The notes beneath the pieces were generated by a model. It saw only the letters and a program-made list of their open reading frames with translations, did not search any database and was not told the DNA's origin. Positions 33,432 through 44,713 of a DNA stretch of 46,911 nucleotides are shown here, piece after piece. Every line of letters begins with the position of its first letter. Position 1 is the first letter of the stretch. Location of the stretch: contig JASIAM010000115.1 of assembly GCA_030041985.1 (NCBI GenBank), positions 1 through 46,911 on the forward strand, written 5' to 3'. A program made the position numbers and the translations under genes. This stretch comes from Bryobacteraceae bacterium. Its GTDB lineage: Bacteria; Acidobacteriota; Terriglobia; Bryobacterales; Bryobacteraceae.

Positions 33432-34070
33432 ATGGCTTGTGCTATTTGCAGCACGCGGCGCCCGAAGCGGTTTTGCCCGGGTGTCAACGGTGAGATCTGT
33501 CCCATTTGCTGCGGCACGGAGCGGGAAATAACGGTAAGCTGTCCGCTCAATTGTGAGTACTTGCAGGACTCGCGGCGGCACGAGAAGCCTGTTCTCTCCC
33601 ATCCCGTAAACCTGCCGGATCAGGACATTCGTGTGACCGATACTTTCCTGCGCGATCATGATGAGCTTTTGACGGCGCTCGCTGGGATCATTGCTGAGGC
33701 TGCTCTGGCGATACCGGGCGTGGTTGACTGGGACGTCCGGGATGCACTGGCAGCGCTGGTTCGCACTTACCGTACGCTTGCCTCCGGATTGTATTACGAA
33801 ACGCGGCCGGACAACACCCTGGCAGCACGCTTGTGCGCGGCCGTGCAAGAAGGTATTCAGGGGTTTCGTGCTGAGGAGCAGCGGCGGCTGGGGATGCCAC
33901 GAACGCGCGACTCGGATTTCCTGCAATGCCTGGTGTTTTTGGAGAGAGTGGAGTTCGATCATAATAATGGCCGGCGGCGGGGTCGCGCGTTTATCGATTT
34001 GCTGTCGAACCTTGCTCAATCGCTGGAGCGGACTTCGGCGCCGGGGGATTCGCTACTGGTGCTTCCTTAG
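33432..34070 (+). CDS. Zinc-ribbon protein of unknown function
   Basis: This 212-residue cytoplasmic protein begins 'MACAICSTRRPKRFCPGVNG', followed by 'EICPICCGTEREITVSCPLN' and 'CEYLQDSRR'. Several CxxC/CxxCC motifs in the first 45 residues form one or two zinc-binding knuckles. The rest is predicted helical ('FLRDHDELLTALAGIIAEAA', 'ALAALVRTYRTLASGLYYET', 'FLQCLVFLERVEFDHNNGRR') and resembles a family I have seen in Acidobacteriota without assigned role. The frame opens at 33411, but the ATG at 33432 matches the Cys-rich start. Its last 80 bases overlap, on the other strand, the end of fliM. Confidence 0.75.
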   Translation: MACAICSTRRPKRFCPGVNGEICPICCGTEREITVSCPLNCEYLQDSRRHEKPVLSHPVNLPDQDIRVTDTFLRDHDELLTALAGIIAEAALAIPGVVDWDVRDALAALVRTYRTLASGLYYETRPDNTLAARLCAAVQEGIQGFRAEEQRRLGMPRTRDSDFLQCLVFLERVEFDHNNGRRRGRAFIDLLSNLAQSLERTSAPGDSLLVLP

Positions 34071-35013
34071 GCGCCGATTCGCGTAACCGTTCGATCGCGA
34101 GAGCGCGTTTCGAGGCAGTGGCGACAATCTGCCCGGAATACTGCTCCCGGCCGTTTACCAAAAGGTCCACCGGGCTGCTCACCGGCCGGTCAAAAACCAC
34201 TACGTTTCCTTCGGAGAGATCTAGGAGATTTTGTACCGATAATTCCAGCCCTTCAAGACGCGCCTCCAGCGTCAGCGAGGCCTCCTGCAGCATTACCAGG
34301 AAGCGCGCCTGCTCGGTCTCGCTGGCAACGGTTTTGCGGACGGACCATTGCTGATCGAATTTCTGCCGCATCATTTTAATCACGATCGACGGGAGAGCAA
34401 TGTTCATCATGCCGACAGCTTCCGCGATCCGGATCTCGACCCCGATCGCCACCACCGCCTCGTTGGGCGCTAGCACATACAATAGTTGCGGCTCGGTCTC
34501 CATCGATTCGATGGTGAAATCGATTTCGGTGACGCCTTTCCAAGCCTCCCGTAAATCATTAAGAATGATCCGAAGCAATCCGTCCAGCAGTTTCTGTTCG
34601 ATTTCCGTAATGTCCCGCTGAATGGAGCCGGATTGTTTGCCGGTCCCACCCAACAGCATCTCGATAATGGGAAATACCAGGGAAGGATTCAACTCCAGGA
34701 CGCCATTGCCATCATAGGGGCGCAAGCCCATCGAGACCAGGCAGGTGGGCGAAGGCAAACCTTCCAGGAACTCGGAATAGGAAAGCTGTTCCACGCTCAC
34801 CAGGTTTACCGTGAGATAAGAGCGCAGGTACGCCGAAAGGCTCGAAACCAGATTGCGCGCGAAGACATCGTGCAGCAGATGGATCGCGCGGACCTGCGAT
34901 TTGGGAATGCGGTCGGGACGCCGAAAGTCGAATCGGGCGGCGGTAGATTCCCGTTTGCGGTCCTGCTTTTGAAACACTGCATCGATTTCCTGCTGCGAGA
35001 GTTGCCGGCTCAT
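33991..35013 (-). CDS. fliM: FliM, flagellar motor switch protein
   Basis: This is a 340-residue C-ring protein. The extreme N-terminus 'MSRQLSQQEIDAVFQKQ' is the CheY-phosphate docking motif (LSQxEIDxLF type). The central CheC-like domain carries 'FARNLVSSLSAYLRSYLTVN', 'LPSPTCLVSMGL' and the conserved 'MLLGGTG' that contacts FliG. The C-terminal SpoA domain is visible in 'LTLEARLEGLELSVQNLLDL...GNVVVFDRPVSSPVDLLVNG'. A proline/alanine-rich tail of about 30 residues ends the protein and encodes the overlap with the zinc-ribbon gene. No other flagellar gene is in the window; its neighbour is the divergent chemotaxis operon. A candidate FliA-type promoter lies at 35042-35069. Confidence 0.93.
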   Translation of the reverse strand: MSRQLSQQEIDAVFQKQDRKRESTAARFDFRRPDRIPKSQVRAIHLLHDVFARNLVSSLSAYLRSYLTVNLVSVEQLSYSEFLEGLPSPTCLVSMGLRPYDGNGVLELNPSLVFPIIEMLLGGTGKQSGSIQRDITEIEQKLLDGLLRIILNDLREAWKGVTEIDFTIESMETEPQLLYVLAPNEAVVAIGVEIRIAEAVGMMNIALPSIVIKMMRQKFDQQWSVRKTVASETEQARFLVMLQEASLTLEARLEGLELSVQNLLDLSEGNVVVFDRPVSSPVDLLVNGREQYSGQIVATASKRALAIERLRESAPKEAPVANPPAPKSAPAIEQGSTANR

Positions 35014-35161: not shown

Positions 35162-35551
35162 ATGGAATCCGACGTCTTGATTGTGGATGATTCAGCCGCG
35201 ATCCGCAAAATATTGCAGCGGGTATTGCGGCAAACAGGGATGGCGATCAATACGATTCATGAGGCCGGTGACGGGGAAGATGCTCTGAACCTGTTACGGT
35301 CGCATAAAGTTGATCTTGTCTTAACCGATATCAACATGCCAAAAATGGACGGGCTGGAGTTGCTGGCAGCGCTTAAGAAATCTCCCGAGTGGGTAAATGT
35401 GCCGGTGGTCATGATCACGACCGAGGGGGGTGAAACCAAAGTGGCGGAGGCCGTCCGGCTCGGGGCCGCCGGCTATGTCCGCAAGCCTTTTACAGCCGAC
35501 CAAATTAAGGAGAAGCTGGTTGGAATTTTGGAACCGGCGCTGCCATTATGA
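35162..35551 (+). CDS. cheY: CheY-like single-domain response regulator, first copy
   Basis: This 129-residue stand-alone receiver has the acidic pair in 'VLIVDDSAAIRK', phospho-acceptor Asp56 in 'VDLVLTDINMPKMDG', the switch Thr pair in 'VVMITTEGGE' and Lys in 'AGYVRKPFTADQ'. It has no output domain, so it should act by docking on FliM or another target. AAGGAG stands five bases before the ATG. It opens the chemotaxis operon and overlaps the CheX gene by four bases, so the regulator and its phosphatase are translationally coupled. Confidence 0.93.
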   Translation: MESDVLIVDDSAAIRKILQRVLRQTGMAINTIHEAGDGEDALNLLRSHKVDLVLTDINMPKMDGLELLAALKKSPEWVNVPVVMITTEGGETKVAEAVRLGAAGYVRKPFTADQIKEKLVGILEPALPL

Positions 35552-36069
35552 ACGTACAGAATCTAATCGTCGATTCGCTCCGGCATGCTGTCGAGGAAGT
35601 CTTCTCGACGATGCTCACTGGCGAAATCGAATTCCAGGAACTCACGCTCGAAAATGCCACTCCGGAGTTTAGCGATCGCGTGGTTTCTTTCATCGGAGTT
35701 GCCGGTACCTGGACAGGAACCGGAAGCGTGACCTGCTCGCCGGGGGCGGCTTGCCGCGTCTGTTCCCAGATGCTGATGGCGGATTATACTTCGGTCACCG
35801 AAGAAGTGCTGGATGCGGTGGCTGAGTTGACCAATATGATCATAGGGAACGTCAAAAGCGAGTTAGAGCGCCACTTAGGGCCGCTCGGTCTAAGCATTCC
35901 AACCGTGGTCTTCGGACGGAACTTCAAAACCAAGAGCGTCACTGCAGAATGGATCGTCCAGCGCTTTCGTTGGGAAGGCGATGAAGTGCTCTTGCGAATC
36001 TATCTTCGGCCTGGGGAAAGGACCTGTGCTCCAATGACTCAGCCCACCGACGTGGCGATGGAAGTCTAA
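35548..36069 (+). CDS. cheX: CheX-type CheY-phosphate phosphatase, first copy
   Basis: This is a 173-residue CheC/CheX/FliY-family protein. The catalytic E-x-x-N of the phosphatase helix is present in 'VLDAVAELTNMIIGNVKSEL' (Glu-Leu-Thr-Asn), and there is only one such motif, as in CheX rather than CheC. Flanking segments 'SDRVVSFIGVAGTWTGTGSV' and 'GLSIPTVVFGRNF' are typical strands of the fold. It removes phosphate from CheY and so terminates the signal, a role filled by CheZ in enteric bacteria. A C-terminal extension of about 20 residues ('GERTCAPMTQPTDVAMEV') lacks obvious homology. Confidence 0.85.
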   Translation: MNVQNLIVDSLRHAVEEVFSTMLTGEIEFQELTLENATPEFSDRVVSFIGVAGTWTGTGSVTCSPGAACRVCSQMLMADYTSVTEEVLDAVAELTNMIIGNVKSELERHLGPLGLSIPTVVFGRNFKTKSVTAEWIVQRFRWEGDEVLLRIYLRPGERTCAPMTQPTDVAMEV

Positions 36070-36091
36070 TCACATCTAAGGGAAAGCATCT

Positions 36092-36610
36092 ATGCCATCC
36101 ATTGTTGCTGAAAGCCAACCCGCACCCGTCACCTTAGGCGACGCGCGATCTGGGAAGTATCTGACATTCCAACTGGGGAGAGAAGAATTCGGCATTCGCG
36201 TCCTCAAGGTCCGCGAAATCATGGGCATTTTGGAGATTACTGCTGTGCCGCAAACGCCCTCTCACGTAAAGGGCGTTGTCAACCTGCGCGGCAAAGTGGT
36301 ACCTGTAATCGATTTACGCCTCAAGTTCGGCCTCCCAGCCGCCGAATATACGCAAAGAACCTGCATCATTGTGACGCAGATCAATGGAGAATCGGGAAAC
36401 ATTCTCATGGGGGTCATCGTGGATGGTGTTTCTGAAGTACTCAGCTTGACTCCCTCGGATATCGAAGATACGCCTGACTTTGGCGAAGAGATCACTGGCA
36501 ATTACTTGCTTGGTCTGGCAAAGGTTAAGGGCAAGGTCAAAATCCTGCTGGATATCGACAGGGTCCTTTCCGCACAGGATCTGCATCACCTGAAAAGCAT
36601 GCTGCAGTAG
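36092..36610 (+). CDS. cheW: CheW, chemotaxis coupling protein
   Basis: This 172-residue adaptor links receptors to the kinase CheA. The double SH3-like fold is clear: 'KYLTFQLGREEFGIRVLKVR', 'EIMGILEITAVPQTPSHVKG', 'VVNLRGKVVPVIDLRLKFGL', 'RTCIIVTQINGESGNILMGV', 'IVDGVSEVLSLTPSDIEDTP' and 'YLLGLAKVKGKVKILLDIDR'. The conserved 'NLRGKVVPVIDLR' sits at the receptor/CheA interface. The N-terminus has a short extra stretch of about 20 residues. It lies 22 bases after cheX with an AAGGGAAAG ribosome site and 23 bases before the receptor gene. Confidence 0.95.
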   Translation: MPSIVAESQPAPVTLGDARSGKYLTFQLGREEFGIRVLKVREIMGILEITAVPQTPSHVKGVVNLRGKVVPVIDLRLKFGLPAAEYTQRTCIIVTQINGESGNILMGVIVDGVSEVLSLTPSDIEDTPDFGEEITGNYLLGLAKVKGKVKILLDIDRVLSAQDLHHLKSMLQ

Positions 36611-36633
36611 AGGTTATTTAGTGGAGAAACGCT

Positions 36634-37776
36634 ATGCCTGAAGACAGAGTGCCTTTTTCAATGAAGCTTTCCATTTGCGCTGGGGCCAATCTGCTGCTGC
36701 TCCTGTGGCTAGCTTGGCTCGCGATGACGCCGGGACAGTCTTCGTCCCACTGGCTGGTTGGGCCGTTGGCCATCCTAGGAGTGATCGTGGCTGTAGTGGC
36801 ACTGTATGTCATTCATAGCGTAACCCGTCAGTTTCGACAGATCGCTGCTGGATTGCTCGACGGTTCGCGCCAGATGGCTGCCGCTTCCGGGCAGGTGGCG
36901 TCTGCGAGCAATGCACTGGCTCAAGGCGCCTCCGAGCAAGCGGCGGCACTCGAAGAGACGTCGTCATCAGCCACGGAAATAACTTCCATTACTCGGAAGA
37001 ATACCGAAAATACGCGCGCTGTCGCGGGTCTCATGGTGCAGGCGGCACAGGCAGTAAGAGACGCCAATCGAAATCTGGAAGAAATGGTCCGATCTATGAA
37101 AGAGATCACCGGTTCAAGCGAGAAGATTTCCAAGATCATTCGAGTCATCGACGAGATTGCATTTCAAACGAACATTTTGGCCTTGAATGCAGCGGTGGAA
37201 GCTGCGCGGGCTGGTGAAGCCGGCATGGGATTCGCCGTGGTCGCCGACGAAGTGCGCAATCTCGCCCAGCGCAGCGCGCAAGCCGCAAAGGATACAGCCT
37301 CACTCATTGAAGAATCCATCAATAAATCGAGCGAGGGAAGCGGAAAGCTGGACCAAGTTGCTAAGTCGGTAAATCAGATTACCGCCAGCACCTTAGAGGT
37401 AAAGACTCTGGTGGATGAGATTGCAGCCGGTAGCCAGGAGCAATCCCGTGGGATCGAGCAGATCGCCACCGCGGTGACCGAAATGGAGAAAATGACCCAG
37501 CAGGGCGCAGCCGGAGCGGAGCAAAGCGCTTCCGCCAGTGAAGAACTGGCGTCACAAGCCCGTAGCCTCTGCTCGCTGGCGGATAGCCTGGAGATTTTGG
37601 TCGGCAAACGTGACACGGTCGACGGCACTGATGTAGAGGGGAAGCCTACCCCATTCGAAACGGAGGCTGCGGTGGGGGCCATGCGCACCGGCACAGGCCG
37701 GCCCGCCACTATGTCGCACCGGCGAGGAATTGACCGCGCTGCCTTACCGCTAGAGGGAGAGGACAACCTTTTCTAA
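36634..37776 (+). CDS. Methyl-accepting chemotaxis protein without a sizeable sensor domain
   Basis: This is a 380-residue receptor. Two hydrophobic helices (about residues 10-32 and 41-62) are separated by fewer than ten residues ('TPGQSSSHW'), so almost nothing reaches outside the membrane. There is no recognisable HAMP. The signalling domain is well conserved, with the hairpin tip '[20 protein letters not shown]' then '[20 protein letters not shown]', and coiled coils on either side rich in the Q/E pairs that are methylation sites ('[20 protein letters not shown]', '[20 protein letters not shown]'). A 70-residue tail carries no CheR-docking pentapeptide. It may sense membrane state, or couple other inputs through CheW. 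The gene lies between cheW and cheA. Confidence 0.92.
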
Positions 37777-37785
37777 AGGCTCCTT

Positions 37786-39765
37786 ATGCCGCGCTACGTA
37801 GAATTACAACAACGGGTAGAAGATCTTGCCCTGCGCCTGGTGCTCGCAGGGACAGACAGCAGAGAGAATGTGGATAACTGGATCGAGGCGATCGGGGCGA
37901 TTCACAACGGTGCTGTCTGCGAAGGAGCAACCGAAGCTGCGGACGCCGCTACGGCCCTGATTGCAACGATCCAGGAGGGCGGGGCCACCGATCCGGCACG
38001 CATTTTGCAAGATGGGATCTCGCGACTCCAGCAGGCATTAGGGGTCCATCAACCGGCGGAAGCATCCCTGGCTCAGGATCCCGAACTACTCTCTGATTTC
38101 ATACTGGAAACCCGAGAGCATCTGGCAAGCCTCGAATCGCAGCTCCTCGTCCTGGAACGCGATCCGAGTAACGTGGAGGCGCTGCACGCCATTTTTCGGA
38201 GCTTTCACACCGTCAAAGGCTTGGCGGGGTTTCTGGAGCTACGGGAAATCCAGAAGGTGGCCCATGAAGTCGAATCCGTGCTGGATCTCGCCCGCAATTT
38301 GCGGTTCACGGTATCCCCCGAGGCCATCGATGTAATCCTGCTCAGTGGCGATTACCTCAAGGGATGGCTCGATCACCTGGAATCCGTCCTCCAGAAGCAG
38401 CCATCCCGCTGTCCCGATCCCGACCCGAATCTGCTCGCACGGATAGCAGCAATCCCTTCTTTGCAACTAGCTACTCCTCCGGGCAGTTTGGGCTCGCTCG
38501 CCGCCGCTGTGGAACAAAAGGGCCGTCCGCAGCTTACGGAAGCCCAGCCGTCTTTGCCGTCCGAAACCGCCGGGGAAATCCGGCGAGCAGAGGCCAAGGC
38601 AGTAAAAGTAGACACGGCGAAGCTGGATTATCTCGTCGATATGGCGGGGGAGATGGTGATTGCCGAAACCCTGGTCCGGCACGACCCGGAACTCGCCAAG
38701 GTCAAGAGCCCAAGGCTGCAACGGAATCTGGGGCAACTCACGCGGATCACCGGAGAATTGCAGAGGACCGCGATGGCCATGCGTCTGGTTCCCATCGGGC
38801 CCCTGTTTCGTAGGATGGCCCGCCTGGTCCGAGACCTGTCACGCCAGTTTGGCAAACCGGTCACGATGGAAACTGAAGGAGACGAGATCGAATTGGATCG
38901 GACCATTGTCGAGGAGTTGGCCGATCCCCTGATGCACATGGTGCGCAACTCTATGGATCACGGGTTCGAGCATCCCGATGCCCGCGAAGCCGCCGGCAAG
39001 CCCCTAGCAGGCCGGCTTTTGCTGAAAGCGCAACATCTGGCGGGTCAGGTCGTCATCGAACTTTCCGACGATGGCAGGGGGTTGAATCGGGAGAAGATCC
39101 TCGCCAAAGCGGTTGAGAAGGGCCTGATATCGGGCGAGGAGAACCTTTCTGAAAACGAAATCTCTGAACTGATTTTCAAGCCCGGCTTTAGCACTGCGGC
39201 TCAGGTGACTGACGTATCCGGGCGCGGCGTAGGCATGGATGTGGTCCGGAGACACATCGAGAAACTCCGGGGACGCATTGAAGTTCGTTCGGTAACAGGC
39301 CAAGGCACCACTTTCCTTCTGAAATTACCGCTCACTCTCGCCATAATTGACGGCCTGGTGGTGGGCGTGGGTGCCGAGCGCTATATCGTTCCGCTATTCT
39401 CTATTCATGAAATTTTCCGGCCAAAAGCCGATACTATCTGGACCGTACAAGAGCGAGCAGAAATGGCTTTAGTGCGTGGCTCCCTTGTTCCGGTTCTTCG
39501 GTTATACAGGAAATTCGGCGTGGTTCCCCGCTCGGAAGATCCCACGGAAGGAGTCCTGGTTTTGGCTGAAGTGGAATCGCAACGATTCTGCCTGTTGGTC
39601 GATGAGTTGATTGGCAAGCAGGAAATAGTGATAAAGAGCCTGGGCGAAACCTTCGCGGGAGCCGTAGGAATCGCCGGGGGCGCCATCCTCGGTGACGGTA
39701 GGGTGGGATTAATTCTCGATCTGGACCGGCTTTTCCGTGACAAAACTGGCGATGCCGCACACTGA
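37786..39765 (+). CDS. cheA: CheA, chemotaxis histidine kinase
   Basis: This 659-residue kinase opens with about 95 residues that I do not recognise. The P1 phosphotransfer domain follows, with the phospho-acceptor His141 in 'AIFRSFHTVKGLAGFLELRE'. There is no clear P2 CheY-binding domain; a P/L-rich linker leads to the P3 dimerisation helices ('KVDTAKLDYLVDMAGEMVIA'). The P4 ATPase domain carries the N-box 'LMHMVRNSMDHGFEHPDARE', the G1 box 'ELSDDGRGLN', and the G2 region 'VSGRGVGMDVVRRHIEKLRG'. The P5 CheW-like domain ends the protein ('LTLAIIDGLVVGVGAERYIV'). It phosphorylates CheY and CheB on signals from receptors. Its stop overlaps the cheR start. Confidence 0.95.
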   Translation: MPRYVELQQRVEDLALRLVLAGTDSRENVDNWIEAIGAIHNGAVCEGATEAADAATALIATIQEGGATDPARILQDGISRLQQALGVHQPAEASLAQDPELLSDFILETREHLASLESQLLVLERDPSNVEALHAIFRSFHTVKGLAGFLELREIQKVAHEVESVLDLARNLRFTVSPEAIDVILLSGDYLKGWLDHLESVLQKQPSRCPDPDPNLLARIAAIPSLQLATPPGSLGSLAAAVEQKGRPQLTEAQPSLPSETAGEIRRAEAKAVKVDTAKLDYLVDMAGEMVIAETLVRHDPELAKVKSPRLQRNLGQLTRITGELQRTAMAMRLVPIGPLFRRMARLVRDLSRQFGKPVTMETEGDEIELDRTIVEELADPLMHMVRNSMDHGFEHPDAREAAGKPLAGRLLLKAQHLAGQVVIELSDDGRGLNREKILAKAVEKGLISGEENLSENEISELIFKPGFSTAAQVTDVSGRGVGMDVVRRHIEKLRGRIEVRSVTGQGTTFLLKLPLTLAIIDGLVVGVGAERYIVPLFSIHEIFRPKADTIWTVQERAEMALVRGSLVPVLRLYRKFGVVPRSEDPTEGVLVLAEVESQRFCLLVDELIGKQEIVIKSLGETFAGAVGIAGGAILGDGRVGLILDLDRLFRDKTGDAAH

Positions 39766-40627
39766 CTCCATTCCGGCTCCCTGGACTGATCATCCAGTGC
39801 GCCCCCTCGGTGACCGGGAGTTCGAACAAATTCGCGATCTGGCGCGCCGAACGTTCGGCCTGGATCTGAGGGATGGTAAACAAGATCTGGTTACGGCCCG
39901 TTTACAGCGGCTAGTACGGGCAGGCGGTTTCCACTCCTATCACGAGTATTACCGCCACATTCTATCCGACTCTACGGGAGAATCGTTGCTGGCGCTCATT
40001 GACGCGCTCGCCACCAATCACACGGCGTTTTTACGCGAGGCCGCCCACTTCGATTTTCTGCGGCAACACGTAATGCCGGAGCTAGCGCGGAGGCCATCGG
40101 TGGACATCTGGAGCGCGGCATGTTCCACCGGAGAGGAAGTATGGACCCTGATACTCCTGTTGCGGGACGCCCTGCCCAGCAGCAAGTTGCGGGTTATCGG
40201 AAGCGACATTTCGCGCAAAGCTCTCGCAACCGCCGCCCGTGCGGTTTACCCCGCAGAGCGAGTTGGGGTGCTTCCGCCGGCATGGCGGGACATCGGCTTC
40301 GTCAAGGAACGTGGCCAACCGGATTTGTACAGCGTGAAAACGTCCATTCGCACGCTCGCCACTTTCCGGCGGTTGAACCTGATTGAACCAGTCCCATGGC
40401 CGATCCAGTTCCCGGTCATTTTCTGCCGCAATGTGATGATCTACTTCGATCCACCGACGCAGGCAAAGGTGATCGCCAACCTGAACGAGAGTCTGGAACC
40501 CGGCGGGTACCTTTTTGTGGGCCACGCGGAGAGTTTTTCAGGAATCCGGCACGCTCTCGAATACGTGCGGCCGGCTGTCTATAAGAAACCAATCGGTAAA
40601 CGAGGAGGATCGTGCCAAAAGTCGTAA
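39737..40627 (+). CDS. cheR: CheR, chemoreceptor glutamate methyltransferase
   Basis: This is a 296-residue SAM-dependent methyltransferase. The N-terminal helical domain ('EFEQIRDLARRTFGLDLRDG') leads to 'LIDALATNHTAFLREAAHFD', a divergent form of the NETxFFR motif (here N-H-T-A-F-L-R). The SAM-binding motif 'IWSAACSTGEEVWTLILLLR' and 'FPVIFCRNVMIYFDPPTQ' are standard. It adds methyl groups to receptor glutamates opposite CheB. GTG 39737 overlaps cheA by 29 bases; an ATG five codons on (39752) is an alternative start. The cheD gene overlaps its 3' end by 16 bases. Confidence 0.94.
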   Translation: MTKLAMPHTDSIPAPWTDHPVRPLGDREFEQIRDLARRTFGLDLRDGKQDLVTARLQRLVRAGGFHSYHEYYRHILSDSTGESLLALIDALATNHTAFLREAAHFDFLRQHVMPELARRPSVDIWSAACSTGEEVWTLILLLRDALPSSKLRVIGSDISRKALATAARAVYPAERVGVLPPAWRDIGFVKERGQPDLYSVKTSIRTLATFRRLNLIEPVPWPIQFPVIFCRNVMIYFDPPTQAKVIANLNESLEPGGYLFVGHAESFSGIRHALEYVRPAVYKKPIGKRGGSCQKS

Positions 40628-41139
40628 TCGGGATGGGGGACTGCGGCGTAACGGCAGATTCACAATCACTGCTGGTTACCTATGCCCTTGGATCGTGCAT
40701 AGGCTTGGCAATCTACGATCCAGTCGCAGCCGCGGGAGGACTATTGCATTTTATGTTGCCGGACTCAACTTTGTTTCCTAACAACGCACCGGAGAACCCG
40801 TATAAGTTCGCCGACACGGGCATCCCACTGCTCTTGGAAAAAGTGTGCGCGTACGGCGGCTCAAAGCGGCGCTTGATCGCGTATATGGCAGGGGGCGCCC
40901 AGATGCTGGATAAGGAGGGCATTTTCGAAATCGGGAAGCGGAACTGCCTGGCGGCACGACGCGTGTTATGGAAACATGGTTTGTTATTAGCGGGCGAAGT
41001 CGTGGGTGGCGTGAATTTCCGCACGGTCACTCTGGAGATCGCCACAGGCCGCTTTCTGCTTGAGGAAGCTGGGCGCCAACGTGAGTTGCTGCCGCCAACG
41101 CGTAAGAAAGGGGATTCGACGTGGCGTACCGTGTCTTGA
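40612..41139 (+). CDS. cheD: CheD, chemoreceptor glutamine deamidase
   Basis: This 175-residue enzyme deamidates receptor glutamines to glutamates and in some bacteria interacts with CheC/CheX phosphatases. The catalytic Cys29 lies in 'LVTYALGSCIGLAIYDPVAA', His46 in 'GGLLHFMLPDS', and a Thr in 'KFADTGIPLLLEKV'. The 'GGAQML' and 'RNCLAARRVLWKHGLLLAGE' segments are also typical. GTG 40612 is preceded by the strong site GAGGAGG, nested inside the end of cheR. The C-terminal 19 bases overlap the second cheY. Confidence 0.95.
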   Translation: MPKVVIGMGDCGVTADSQSLLVTYALGSCIGLAIYDPVAAAGGLLHFMLPDSTLFPNNAPENPYKFADTGIPLLLEKVCAYGGSKRRLIAYMAGGAQMLDKEGIFEIGKRNCLAARRVLWKHGLLLAGEVVGGVNFRTVTLEIATGRFLLEEAGRQRELLPPTRKKGDSTWRTVS

Positions 41140-41507
41140 TCGTGGACGATTCGCCGGCCATGCGCGCCTTCGTTCGGCGCGTGATGGAAATTTCGGGTTT
41201 CGACCTGGCAACTTGCCTGGAAGCATCCAATGGCGCACAGGCATTGGAACTGCTCCATACCGAATGGGTGGATGCCATTCTCAGCGATGTCAACATGCCG
41301 GAGATGGATGGGGAACAATTCTTGCGTCGTCTCGAAGCGGATGAAGCATTGCGGCATATTCCGGTCATCATCATCTCCACCGACGGGACCAGGTCCCGCG
41401 TCGAGCGAATGCTGGATTTGGGCGCTCGTGGCTACGTCATGAAGCCGTTCCGGCCGGAGGCTCTCCGCGCGGAACTGGAGCGCACGCTGGAGGTGTCCAG
41501 TGAATGA
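41121..41507 (+). CDS. cheY: CheY-like single-domain response regulator, second copy
   Basis: This 128-residue stand-alone receiver has 'VLIVDDSPAMRAFVRRVMEI', phospho-acceptor Asp56 in 'VDAILSDVNMPEMDGEQFLR', Thr in 'IPVIIISTDG' and Lys in 'RGYVMKPFRPEALR'. It differs clearly from the first CheY of the operon (for example STDG versus TTEG after the fourth strand), so the two are not recent copies. GTG 41121 lies inside cheD. It overlaps the following CheX gene by eight bases. Confidence 0.93.
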   Translation: MAYRVLIVDDSPAMRAFVRRVMEISGFDLATCLEASNGAQALELLHTEWVDAILSDVNMPEMDGEQFLRRLEADEALRHIPVIIISTDGTRSRVERMLDLGARGYVMKPFRPEALRAELERTLEVSSE

Positions 41508-41979
41508 CCAAACGCTGGCCCAGGCGCTGGCCGAATGCACGGAAGAGGTGCTGGAGCAAATGTTCTTCGTCCGCCCTCTCAGCGATGCCACCGACGAGGA
41601 TTTGCCTGCCTCACATCATTTGATTGCGGATGTGGATTTCGCCGGAGAACCTTCGGGACACCTTATCCTGTCGGTGTCCCAGCAGGCAGCCCGCTCGATC
41701 GCAGCGGATTTTCTGGCAGAGGAGGAACCAGTACTTTCTGAGCAGCAAGTGGGAGAAGTGGTTTGCGAGCTCGCCAACATCATTTGCGGCTCGGTGCTGA
41801 CACGTGTGGAGAGCAGCGCTCTATTCCGGCTCGGCTCGCCGCGCCTGCTGCCCCAAGGTCCGCAACCGAAGCCGCAACAGGGCGCCGTTCAGTCGCTGAA
41901 ACTCTGGAATGGTAATCTTACCGTGGCCATGAGCACGGAGTCTTCGCTATGTCCGGCAGAAAACGAATCCGAGTCCTGA
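41500..41979 (+). CDS. cheX: CheX-like phosphatase, second copy
   Basis: This 159-residue CheC/CheX-family protein has one phosphatase motif in 'VGEVVCELANIICGSVLTRV' (Glu-Leu-Ala-Asn, E-x-x-N). Upstream strands 'ADVDFAGEPSGHLILSVSQQ' fit the fold. It is shorter and more divergent than the first CheX of the operon. The start is GTG 41500 with GGAGGT five bases upstream, overlapping cheY by eight bases. Its last 31 bases overlap cheB. Activity toward the neighbouring CheY is inferred. Confidence 0.78.
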   Translation: MNDQTLAQALAECTEEVLEQMFFVRPLSDATDEDLPASHHLIADVDFAGEPSGHLILSVSQQAARSIAADFLAEEEPVLSEQQVGEVVCELANIICGSVLTRVESSALFRLGSPRLLPQGPQPKPQQGAVQSLKLWNGNLTVAMSTESSLCPAENESES

Positions 41980-43013
41980 TTGTTGACGATTCGGCGATCG
42001 TGCGGCGAATTCTGAACGATGCGCTGACTGGCGAACCGGATCTGGAAGTTGTGGGGACGGCTCCGGACCCTTACGTGGCTCGAGATAAAATTCTTGCGCT
42101 TGCGCCGGACGTGGTTACCCTGGATATTGAAATGCCGCGGATGGACGGGCTCACGTTTCTGCGCAAACTGATGCGCTACCGCCCCTTGCCCGTGGTGGTC
42201 ATCAGTTCGTTGGCTCAGGGTGCTTGCCAGGCGGCCCTAAAGGCGTTGGAACTCGGCGCAGTTGAGGTATTGGCCAAACCGGGGGGGCCACACTCGGTGG
42301 GAGAATTGCGGGAAACGCTGGCGTCGAAGATCCGCGCCGCCGCGGCATCCCGCATTAGCCGGAGCGTGCTGCCGGCAGCGGCGACTAGTTCTGTGCGTCA
42401 TGTCCTAGAGCCTCCCTCCGCGCCGGTTACGCAGGGGTCCAGCCGGCCTTCGCATGGCATTATCGCCATTGGCGCTTCCACAGGCGGCACCGATGCCATA
42501 GCCACCGTCCTCCGAGTCTTTCCCAAAGATGCCCCGGCAACGCTCGTGGTGCAGCACATCCCTCCGGGATTTTCGCGTGCTTTCGCCAATCGCATGAACG
42601 ATACGTGCGTGATCGATGTCAAAGAAGCCGAAGATGGCGATGTTCTTCGCCCGAACCTCGCGCTAGTCGCGCCGGGAGACTTCCATATGTTGTTGCGTAA
42701 GTCCGGCGGCCGGTACTTCGTGAATGTGAAATCCGGTCCGCGAGTGTGCTATCAGCGGCCGTCGGTGGATGTACTTTTCCACTCTATCGCTGAGGCCGCT
42801 GGCTCAACGGCGACGGCTGCGCTGCTCACCGGTATGGGATCGGATGGAGCTCAAGGTCTCTTAAAAATGCGGCAAGCCGGCGCTCATACGATTGCGCAGG
42901 ACGAAGCCAGTTGTGTGATCTTTGGGATGCCTCGCGAGGCCATCCAGCTCAGAGCAGCAGAGAAGGTGCTCCCGCTCGATCGCATCGCACCGGCATTACT
43001 GACCTGCATCTAA
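41949..43013 (+). CDS. cheB: CheB, receptor methylesterase/glutamine deamidase response regulator
   Basis: This 354-residue protein has a receiver domain (about 5-125) with 'VLIVDDSAIVRRILNDALTG', phospho-acceptor Asp59 in 'DVVTLDIEMPRMDG' and 'VLAKPGGPHS'. A linker leads to the esterase domain with catalytic Ser177 in 'IAIGASTGGTDAI', His203 in 'VVQHIPPGFSRAFANRMN' and Asp299 in 'LLTGMGSDGAQGLLKMRQAG'. It removes methyl groups from receptors and is activated by phosphorylation from CheA. It closes the operon, just before a decayed transposon fragment on the opposite strand. Confidence 0.96.
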   Translation: MSGRKRIRVLIVDDSAIVRRILNDALTGEPDLEVVGTAPDPYVARDKILALAPDVVTLDIEMPRMDGLTFLRKLMRYRPLPVVVISSLAQGACQAALKALELGAVEVLAKPGGPHSVGELRETLASKIRAAAASRISRSVLPAAATSSVRHVLEPPSAPVTQGSSRPSHGIIAIGASTGGTDAIATVLRVFPKDAPATLVVQHIPPGFSRAFANRMNDTCVIDVKEAEDGDVLRPNLALVAPGDFHMLLRKSGGRYFVNVKSGPRVCYQRPSVDVLFHSIAEAAGSTATAALLTGMGSDGAQGLLKMRQAGAHTIAQDEASCVIFGMPREAIQLRAAEKVLPLDRIAPALLTCI

Positions 43014-43525: not shown

Positions 43526-44713
43526 ATGCGCATTCTCCTGTTCAGTGGCAAAGGAGGCGTCGGCAAGACCAGCCTCGCCGCGGCTACCGGGCTGCAACTC
43601 TCCCGGCTAGGCTACCGGACGTTGGTGATGAGCGTAGATCCGGCCCATAGCCTGGCCGACGCCTTCAACCTGGAAACCGACCTCTTTCATGGCAATACCG
43701 GCGATCCCTATCCTATCAACGAGCGCCTCGCTATCCACGAAGTCAATATCCAGAAGGAGATCAAGCGCCACTGGCGTGAAATTTCCGCTTACGTGATTTC
43801 CGTGCTGCGCACCACCGGCATTAGCGACGTGGAGGCCGAGGAACTGGCCATTCTTCCGGGTATGGAAGAGCTCAGCGCCATGATGTGGGTCAACACTTTT
43901 CGCCGCGAACGGCGCTACGACGTCATCGTTCTCGATTGTGCCCCCACCGCCGAATCCATGCGCTTCGTTAGCATGCCGACCACGCTCGAATGGTACATGC
44001 GGCATATCTTCCCCGTGCAGCGCGGCGTGCTCAAGGCAGTGCGGCCGATTGCCAACCGTGTCTCGCCGATCGAACTCCCACCTGACAGTTATTTCGCCAA
44101 CGTGCAGGATCTGTTCGCCAAGCTGGACGGAATCGACGAGCTGCTGGAGGATCCGCGCGAAACCAGCGTCCGGCTGGTTACCAACCCGGAACGTATGGTG
44201 CTGCGCGAGACCCAACGCGCGTACGTCTATTTCTCACTCCATGGCCTTTCCGTGGATGGCATCATCGTAAATCGGGTTCTGCCGGCCGAGGTGAACGACG
44301 CCTGGTTCCAGGAGTGGCGCGACTCGCAGGCTCGGGTTCTCGAGGAAATCGAGGCCTATTTTGCCCCCGTGCCGGTGAAGCGTGTGGCACTGTTTACTCA
44401 TGAAGTGCTCGGCCACGATCGTCTGGAAGAGTTGGCCCGGGCGCTCTACCGGGAAGATGAAGACCCTGCGGCGGTCACCCGCACGGAAGCTCCTTTTGCG
44501 TTCGTCAAAAATGACGGCCATTATGAGGTGCGCATCAAGCTGCCCTTCGCAGCTAAGGGAGACGTCGGCCTCTTCAAGAAAGGCGATGAACTGGTAGTGG
44601 AAATCGGCACACTCCGCCGCCACGTCGGGCTGCCCACCAGTATGGCCAGCCTTTCTCCCACTCGGGCCAGGTTGGAAAATCGTGTTTTGACTGTGGAGAT
44701 GAAGGAGACTTGA
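43526..44713 (+). CDS. ArsA/Get3-family ATPase with C-terminal HSP20-like domain
   Basis: This is a 395-residue P-loop ATPase. The deviant Walker A 'LLFSGKGGVGKTSLAAATGL' opens the protein, switch I is 'MSVDPAHSLADAFNL' and switch II 'IVLDCAPTAESMRFV' (DTAPT in typical Get3). A helical region 'LPGMEELSAMMWVNTFRR' takes the place of the anion-pump insert. The C-terminal 80 residues ('FVKNDGHYEVRIKLPFAAKG', 'GDELVVEIGTLRRHVGLP', 'ENRVLTVEMKET') form the HSP20-like beta-sandwich found in bacterial ArsA-like proteins. There is no Cys-based arsenite site, so membrane-protein chaperoning or another targeting role is more likely than arsenic efflux. A small gene follows one base after the stop. Confidence 0.9.
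   Translation: MRILLFSGKGGVGKTSLAAATGLQLSRLGYRTLVMSVDPAHSLADAFNLETDLFHGNTGDPYPINERLAIHEVNIQKEIKRHWREISAYVISVLRTTGISDVEAEELAILPGMEELSAMMWVNTFRRERRYDVIVLDCAPTAESMRFVSMPTTLEWYMRHIFPVQRGVLKAVRPIANRVSPIELPPDSYFANVQDLFAKLDGIDELLEDPRETSVRLVTNPERMVLRETQRAYVYFSLHGLSVDGIIVNRVLPAEVNDAWFQEWRDSQARVLEEIEAYFAPVPVKRVALFTHEVLGHDRLEELARALYREDEDPAAVTRTEAPFAFVKNDGHYEVRIKLPFAAKGDVGLFKKGDELVVEIGTLRRHVGLPTSMASLSPTRARLENRVLTVEMKET

Follow-up and report, generated by a model that had tools for sequence, protein, structure and literature searches.

Two CheY-CheX pairs in one chemotaxis operon of a Bryobacteraceae bacterium: separate inheritance and a possible forked output

Why would a chemotaxis operon with a single kinase gene carry two CheY genes, each followed by a CheX gene of its own? 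We addressed this question for contig JASIAM010000115.1 of the Bryobacteraceae bacterium assembly GCA_030041985.1, whose positions 1 to 46,911 were analyzed as a whole and are referred to as the window. The operon runs on the plus strand in the order cheY1-cheX1-cheW-mcp-cheA-cheR-cheD-cheY2-cheX2-cheB, spanning 35162 to 43013, with fliM divergent. An initial annotation of the DNA had described two CheY genes, each overlapped from behind by a CheX gene with an E-x-x-N motif, and had placed one pair at the operon head and the other between cheD and cheB. Both statements are confirmed by the gene order as read from the open reading frames (ORFs) and Pfam matches: the start of cheX1 overlaps the end of cheY1 by 4 bases, cheX2 has a GTG start that overlaps the end of cheY2 by 8 bases, the start of cheY2 overlaps cheD, and the motif residues are E93/N96 in CheX1 and E90/N93 in CheX2. 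The last operon gene, cheB, ends at 43013 and falls beyond the region first annotated (35162-41979).

The reading that we favor, with a probability of about 0.55, is a forked output in which the single CheA would phosphorylate two single-domain response regulators, CheY1 acting at the motor and CheY2 acting as a sink or an array branch, each reset by its own CheX. CheY1~P would bind the N-terminus of FliM and be switched off by CheX1. Since its output face is changed, CheY2 is more likely to be non-motor in the source organism, where it would compete for CheA phosphoryl groups as a sink drained by CheX2; alternatively it may act at the receptor array, beside CheD and CheB. A sink or competitor with its own phosphatase would be the simplest non-motor role for CheY2.

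The source assembly (6.0 Mb, 98.2% complete) contains one CheA match and two CheX matches. In agreement with what the initial annotation had stated for the operon, neither CheC nor CheZ was matched genome-wide, although at 98.2% completeness the absences are not absolute and, of 14 genomes serving as control of the CheZ search, just 1 exceeded the cut-off. The two-pair arrangement is not peculiar to the operon under study. A survey of 200 family genomes found CheX1 in 136 and CheX2 in 107; the two types occur together in 94, while 42 have CheX1 alone, 13 have CheX2 alone and 51 have neither. The minimum scores for presence were 75 bits for the CheX1 query and 30 bits for the CheX2 query; G301 (32.8 bits) was excluded as ambiguous, its matched place being also its only CheX, and G255 (59.5 bits, partial) was scored as lacking CheX1. 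In half of the genomes with both types (47 of 94) there is exactly one CheA match, and in the other 47 there are two or more, so the combination of one kinase with both CheX types is recurrent. A hand count gave two or more CheX matches in 31 of the 42 genomes with CheX1 but not CheX2, thus the flagellar pair is often accompanied by another CheX there too. CheX1 tracks FliM (129 of 176 genomes with FliM vs 7 of 24 without; Fisher p 4e-5) and CheX2 does so more weakly (99 of 176 vs 8 of 24; p 0.05), shared ancestry not being removed from either comparison.

CheX1 and CheX2 are predicted CheY-P phosphatases. Both exceed the 27-bit gathering cut-off of Pfam PF13690 (Table 1), CheX1 stays under the 22-bit cut-off of the Pfam CheC model with 19.9 bits, and neither is the Thermotogales equivalog (NCBIfam CheX_Thtogales NF041094: 53.7 and 22.4 bits vs a cut-off of 280). 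In a PDB sequence search CheX2 alone gave weak matches (E 0.3 and 0.83), and its identity was settled by fold comparison. AlphaFold2 models were built from the window protein with 22 of 24 CheX1 rows or 59 of 72 CheX2 rows. The CheX1 model (predicted local distance difference test score, pLDDT, 85.9) matches Thermotoga maritima CheX with Z 20.2 and a root mean square deviation (rmsd) of 1.9 over 153 aligned residues, its best CheC match reaching Z 13.6; the CheX2 model (pLDDT 91.6) matches the CheX-like 3h4y from Desulfovibrio with Z 17.7 and rmsd 2.8 over 138 aligned residues, vs Z 10.8 for the best CheC. Both proteins are thus predicted to adopt the CheX fold, nearer to CheX than to CheC or FliM. 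That CheX2 might be a disguised CheC is ruled out by these fold scores together with the marker residue of CheD described below.

For comparison across genomes we used 54 CheX1 and 85 CheX2, the window being counted in both sets. The CheX1 come from 53 of the 136 family genomes and from G131, the CheX2 from 84 of the 107 and from G233; G131 and G233 belong to the same class (G233 lies outside the family search, hence its label without FliM and without CheX1). All 54 CheX1 retain the catalytic Glu and Asn, and among the 85 CheX2 the Glu is retained in 84 and the Asn in all 85. G300 (L143) is the sole genome in which the catalytic Glu of cheX2 is replaced, by Gly, representing a true loss or an assembly error. 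Three residues past the catalytic Asn (N+3) a Cys is present in 84 of 85 CheX2, in 0 of 54 CheX1, which have Ile, Val, Leu, Phe or Met, and in 0 of 12 CheX3, which have Gly or Ala. The Cys96 codon of the window lies at 41785-41787. The count of 84 of 85 rests on genomes found by whole-protein or Pfam scores; invariance in a second set of contigs was not used, because the scan pattern itself included the Cys. In accordance with the divergence of the pairs noted in the initial annotation, sequence identity is 41% between CheY1 and CheY2 (124 columns) and 29% between CheX1 and CheX2 (111 columns).

The neighborhoods of these genes show that cheY1-cheX1 and cheY2-cheX2 are separately inherited cassettes, the first flagellar and the second built into a sensing cluster. 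The next gene was taken as the nearest ORF matching a window gene, within 400 bases for counts in the sets of 54 and 85. Immediately upstream of cheX2 lies cheY2 in 84 of 84 other genomes, so that the pairing is not due to chance, and in the window too (85 of 85); cheY2 is in turn preceded by cheD in 83 of 84 (84 of 85 with the window). Behind cheX2 we found cheB in 74 of the 84 genomes and a CheX1-type gene in 3; the remaining 7 have no recognized gene there, perhaps because the stretch or contig ends. A cheX2 call was made in 72 of 75 named loci, 68 of which read cheD-cheY2-cheX2. The exceptions are L177 and L208, which differ just by overlapping ORF starts, L201, which has no cheY2 call, and L244, whose CheY is nearer CheY1; L235, L246 and L247 have no cheX2 call. 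The same block is also found in records labeled Myxococcales, Polyangiaceae and Phycisphaerales (L231, L237, L239). CheX1 lies behind cheY1 in 50 of 54 neighborhoods, which together with the 85 of 85 for CheX2 behind cheY2 bears out that the CheY fall into two subfamilies and that each of these goes with a particular CheX subfamily.

In many stretches CheX1 stands alone or beside fliM, and in some at the head of a cluster. In the 16 family genomes with a fliM ORF on a stretch that was read, its nearest recognized neighbor is cheY1 in 13 and cheY2 or cheX2 in none. When both CheX types occur on one stretch (25 genomes other than the window), they share a strand in 21, and cheX1 lies upstream in 18, as in the window. 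FliM and CheX2 without CheX1 were found in 10 genomes, 9 of which also lack a CheY1-grade match; in those 9 the best match of the CheY1 query (83 to 108 bits, 43 to 45% identical) lies beside CheX2 and is CheY2. Incomplete assemblies may explain some of these joint absences of CheY1 and CheX1 (G403 is 88% complete).

A second type of che cluster in the family reads cheA-cheW-mcp-cheY-cheB-cheR-cheX3 (L093, L101, L104, L109, L111). In L093, which belongs to G318 of the same genus as the window, cheY1-cheX1 lies beside fliM, and the cluster behind it contains cheA, cheW, mcp, a third CheY, cheB, cheR and cheX3 but no cheD. Clusters ending in cheX3 had cheD in 0 of 9 loci longer than 4 kb (8 of them with further che genes), and none of their 8 genomes has a CheD match. 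The operon of the window may have originated when a flagellar cheY1-cheX1 cassette came to stand in front of a cheW-to-cheB cluster already equipped with its own pair. The fork may be a conserved design, also built with the different cluster body of G318, and not a chance fusion, with each CheY insulated by its own CheX and the sink capacity set separately from motor shut-off; we advance this extension tentatively, as a possibility that is rather less than even.

How far do the two CheY proteins differ? Both window proteins have D9, D10, D56, T86 or S86, Y105 and K108, and D9, D10, D56 and K108 are invariant across 50 CheY1 and 66 CheY2. The output-face signature of CheY1 is mostly T-T-E-G and K-P-F-T-A-x-Q-I-K-E-K-L, that of CheY2 mostly S-T-D-x-T and K-P-F-x-P-E-x-L-R-x-E-L-E. 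In a tree of 28 CheY1, 34 CheY2 and 9 CheY3, to which both CheY of the window and a CheB receiver were added, all CheY2 rows lie on one side of a branch with an SH-like approximate likelihood ratio test (SH-aLRT) support of 100. The FliM of the window has LSQQEID near its N-terminus as read from the sequence, which we take to be the CheY-binding motif, and a similar motif is found in 15 of 16 fliM ORFs of relatives, the single miss being a fragment (L156). Eight FliM contacts are listed in PMC8225110, and in PMC3774744 (Table 3) Lys119 of Escherichia coli CheY is given as pairing with FliM Asp12. At this position Lys is found in 98% of the 50 CheY1 and Glu in 69% of the 66 CheY2. The sequence comparison is suggestive of a motor-type output face for CheY1.

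Several findings weigh against the forked output, the first of which concerns the private off-switches that the initial annotation had assigned to the two CheY. In 30 genomes the distance correlations were 0.83 for CheY1-CheX1 and 0.75 for CheY2-CheX2 vs 0.71 and 0.73 for the crossed combinations, and partial correlations were 0.63 and 0.43 for the cognate vs 0.21 and 0.34 for the crossed pairs. The bootstrap interval of the cognate-minus-crossed difference, however, ranges from -0.02 to 0.37 and spans zero. Co-evolution of CheY and CheX was rejected as proof of privacy, being too weak when the interval includes zero. Of the annotated scheme of one CheA with two privately reset outputs, the single CheA stands for the genome, and for privacy there is a lean toward the cognate pairs; each CheX may be private to its own CheY.

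Further points on the same side come from the CheY proteins and from the genome counts. At the contact positions Lys92 and Val108 CheY1 as well as CheY2 depart from E. coli, so the comparison of contact faces is suggestive only. Tyr105 is present in 98% of CheY2, which might therefore bind FliM. CheY1 is not one clade on the free CheY tree, where three changes are needed, although a single clade is not rejected (p-AU 0.767). G285 has a CheY1-grade gene (159 bits) without a CheX1 match, and the co-occurrence counts are uncorrected for shared ancestry and assembly gaps. Finally, neither CheX1 nor a CheY1-grade match was found in six genomes of genus g146 that possess FliM and CheX2 (G250, G323, G380, G405, G413, G421; completeness 92 to 97%). 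In these, CheY2 or a CheY outside both pairs must serve the motor, and with only CheY2-CheX2 found beside FliM, CheY2 is not by nature non-motor. The annotated assignment of one CheY to FliM and the other to a sink thus holds in part: CheY1 appears to have the motor-type face and adjoins fliM, and CheY2 differs at a contact position, but g146 argues against a fixed sink. As a separate observation on G285, the neighbors of its CheY1-grade gene (C822, L252) are a FliS-like protein and cytochrome-oxidase-like genes (by eye).

All CheY2 of these g146 genomes have Lys at the 118 position, as do those of 6 CheX1-bearing genomes (g146 and g183). In view of the latter, a coupling of CheY1 loss to Lys at the CheY2 contact position is not upheld, and Lys118 is a lineage trait.

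The genus g146, which seems to run its flagella without CheY1, also speaks for a different explanation, namely that both CheY act on the motor, differing in affinity or effect, and that the CheX are shared. CheY2 retains Tyr105 and Lys108, and several CheY of Rhodobacter (accessible text of PMC2829493) as well as two of Agrobacterium, with different affinity (accessible text of PMC8225110), are described as binding FliM. Yet the output faces of the two subfamilies differ at most conserved positions, the charge at the Lys119 position is reversed in most CheY2, and neither cheY2 nor cheX2 was ever the nearest recognized neighbor of fliM in the stretches read. We consider this explanation unlikely.

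The constant company of cheD directly before cheY2 (83 of 84 genomes and the window) suggests yet another role, an adaptation feedback in which CheY2~P and CheX2 would control CheD, as CheC does with CheY-P in Bacillus subtilis. Coupling of CheC, CheD and CheYp is documented in the accessible text of PMC3513319. CheD was found in 106 of 107 CheX2 genomes. Among 154 CheA-bearing genomes CheX2 occurs in 106 of 110 with CheD vs 1 of 44 without, but CheX1 does not track CheD (96 of 110 vs 35 of 44; p 0.22), and clusters of the cheX3 type have no cheD (9 of 9 loci). Since CheD and CheX2 are encoded in the same operon, however, their co-occurrence is confounded by linkage. CheX2 is also nearer to CheX than to CheC in fold (Z 17.7 vs 10.8), and G408 has CheX2 without any CheD match; its neighborhood (L273) is the sole CheX2 neighborhood read that lacks cheD. 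Phe102 of B. subtilis CheD is reported, in the same accessible text, as always conserved in CheC-bearing species (PMC3513319). The window CheD has Leu99 where T. maritima CheD has Phe in the alignment, and Phe at this marker position is found in 0 of 84 CheD, which argues against the adaptation feedback and is a further point against the forked output; 24 of the 84 have Met at the 101 position, and 83 retain both catalytic residues, Cys and His. On balance an adaptation role appears improbable.

That the pairs are redundant leftovers of fused cassettes, one of them on its way out, is highly improbable: the 13 CheX2-only and 42 CheX1-only genomes mean that either pair's CheX can be lost, but almost every member of either subfamily retains the catalytic and phospho-acceptor residues, and both CheX types occur together in 94 of 200 genomes.

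The forked output has parallels in known systems. In Sinorhizobium the second CheY is a phosphate sink, and to our knowledge CheX is not part of the two-CheY systems of Sinorhizobium and Agrobacterium. Similar to the present operon, these have two CheY, one of which is given as the main motor ligand in the accessible text of PMC8225110. As far as PMC3774744 is accessible, CheY3 and CheY4 of Vibrio cholerae are likewise two, the second lying in a cheD-bearing cluster, and CheY4 is unable to bind FliM and was suggested to be a phosphate sink; unlike here, the cheY4 cluster has no listed phosphatase gene and the three clusters each have their own CheA. The CheX of T. maritima (1xko, 1squ) and Borrelia burgdorferi (3hzh, a CheX-CheY complex) share the fold and the E-x-x-N helix, whereas here two CheX and two CheY occur per operon and CheX2 has the extra conserved N+3 Cys. 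The CheC-CheD-CheY-P module of B. subtilis is alike in having a phosphatase gene of the CheC/CheX superfamily near cheD, but CheX2 is CheX-like and the CheD here lacks the residue marking CheC-bearing species. In Campylobacterota, according to the accessible text of PMC9321776, cheX lies by flagellar genes (cheX-fliNO), as cheY1-cheX1 lies by fliM here; in contrast, cheX and cheY are separated there, and CheZ occurs as well. Three cheX per genome are given for two Desulfuromonas strains (accessible text of PMC8235581) and one per genome for Geobacter (accessible text of PMC2577667). A literature search of titles and abstract openings, covering few subscription papers, returned no case of two CheY-CheX pairs per operon and no CheX study in the source family. 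The parts are of known kinds; as far as searched, what is new is the variant formed by their conserved arrangement as a putative fork, with two pairs under a single kinase.

Should each CheX act on its own CheY alone, the operon would provide a natural case of phosphatase specificity that is insulated within a single chemotaxis pathway. The setting is a soil lineage, for which the literature search turned up no chemotaxis study. An evolutionary test is at hand, as CheY2-CheX2 can be compared between relatives with CheY1-CheX1 and the genus in which CheY1-CheX1 was not found.

Table 1. Genes of the chemotaxis operon and the divergent fliM (window coordinates)
Feature	Position	Strand	Evidence
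fliM	33991..35013	-	TIGR01397 232.7 bits (cut-off 219.6); PF02154 189.8 bits
cheY1, putative motor-type CheY	35162..35551	+	Response_reg 109.9 bits; top PDB match 3olw, 92.4 bits (chain named CheY)
cheX1, predicted CheX phosphatase, E93/N96	35548..36069	+	PF13690 65.6 bits
cheW	36092..36610	+	PF01584 127.8 bits
mcp	36634..37776	+	PF00015 166.3 bits, residues 135-288
cheA	37786..39765	+	Hpt, H-kinase_dim, HATPase_c, CheW domains
cheR	39737..40627	+	PF01739 167.5 bits
cheD, Cys29 and His46 kept	40612..41139	+	PF03975 96.5 bits
cheY2, cluster-type CheY, Glu118 (aligned with Lys119 of E. coli CheY)	41121..41507	+	Response_reg 102.4 bits
cheX2, predicted CheX phosphatase, E90/N93 and Cys96	41500..41979	+	PF13690 51.3 bits
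cheB	41949..43013	+	PF01339 205.8 bits; Response_reg 77.2 bits

The PDB entry matched best by CheY1 is presumably E. coli CheY. The Pfam scan yielded no sensor domain in the methyl-accepting chemotaxis protein (MCP) of the operon, which by eye has hydrophobic N-terminal segments besides its signaling domain, and no match to a P2 (CheY-docking) family in CheA, whose N-terminal approximately 100 residues ahead of Hpt (37786-38085) matched no Pfam family. Purine runs upstream of cheY1 and cheX2 were seen by eye and may serve in ribosome binding. Downstream of the operon lies a gene for a GET3/ArsA-type ATPase (43526-44713; TIGR00345, 228.8 bits).

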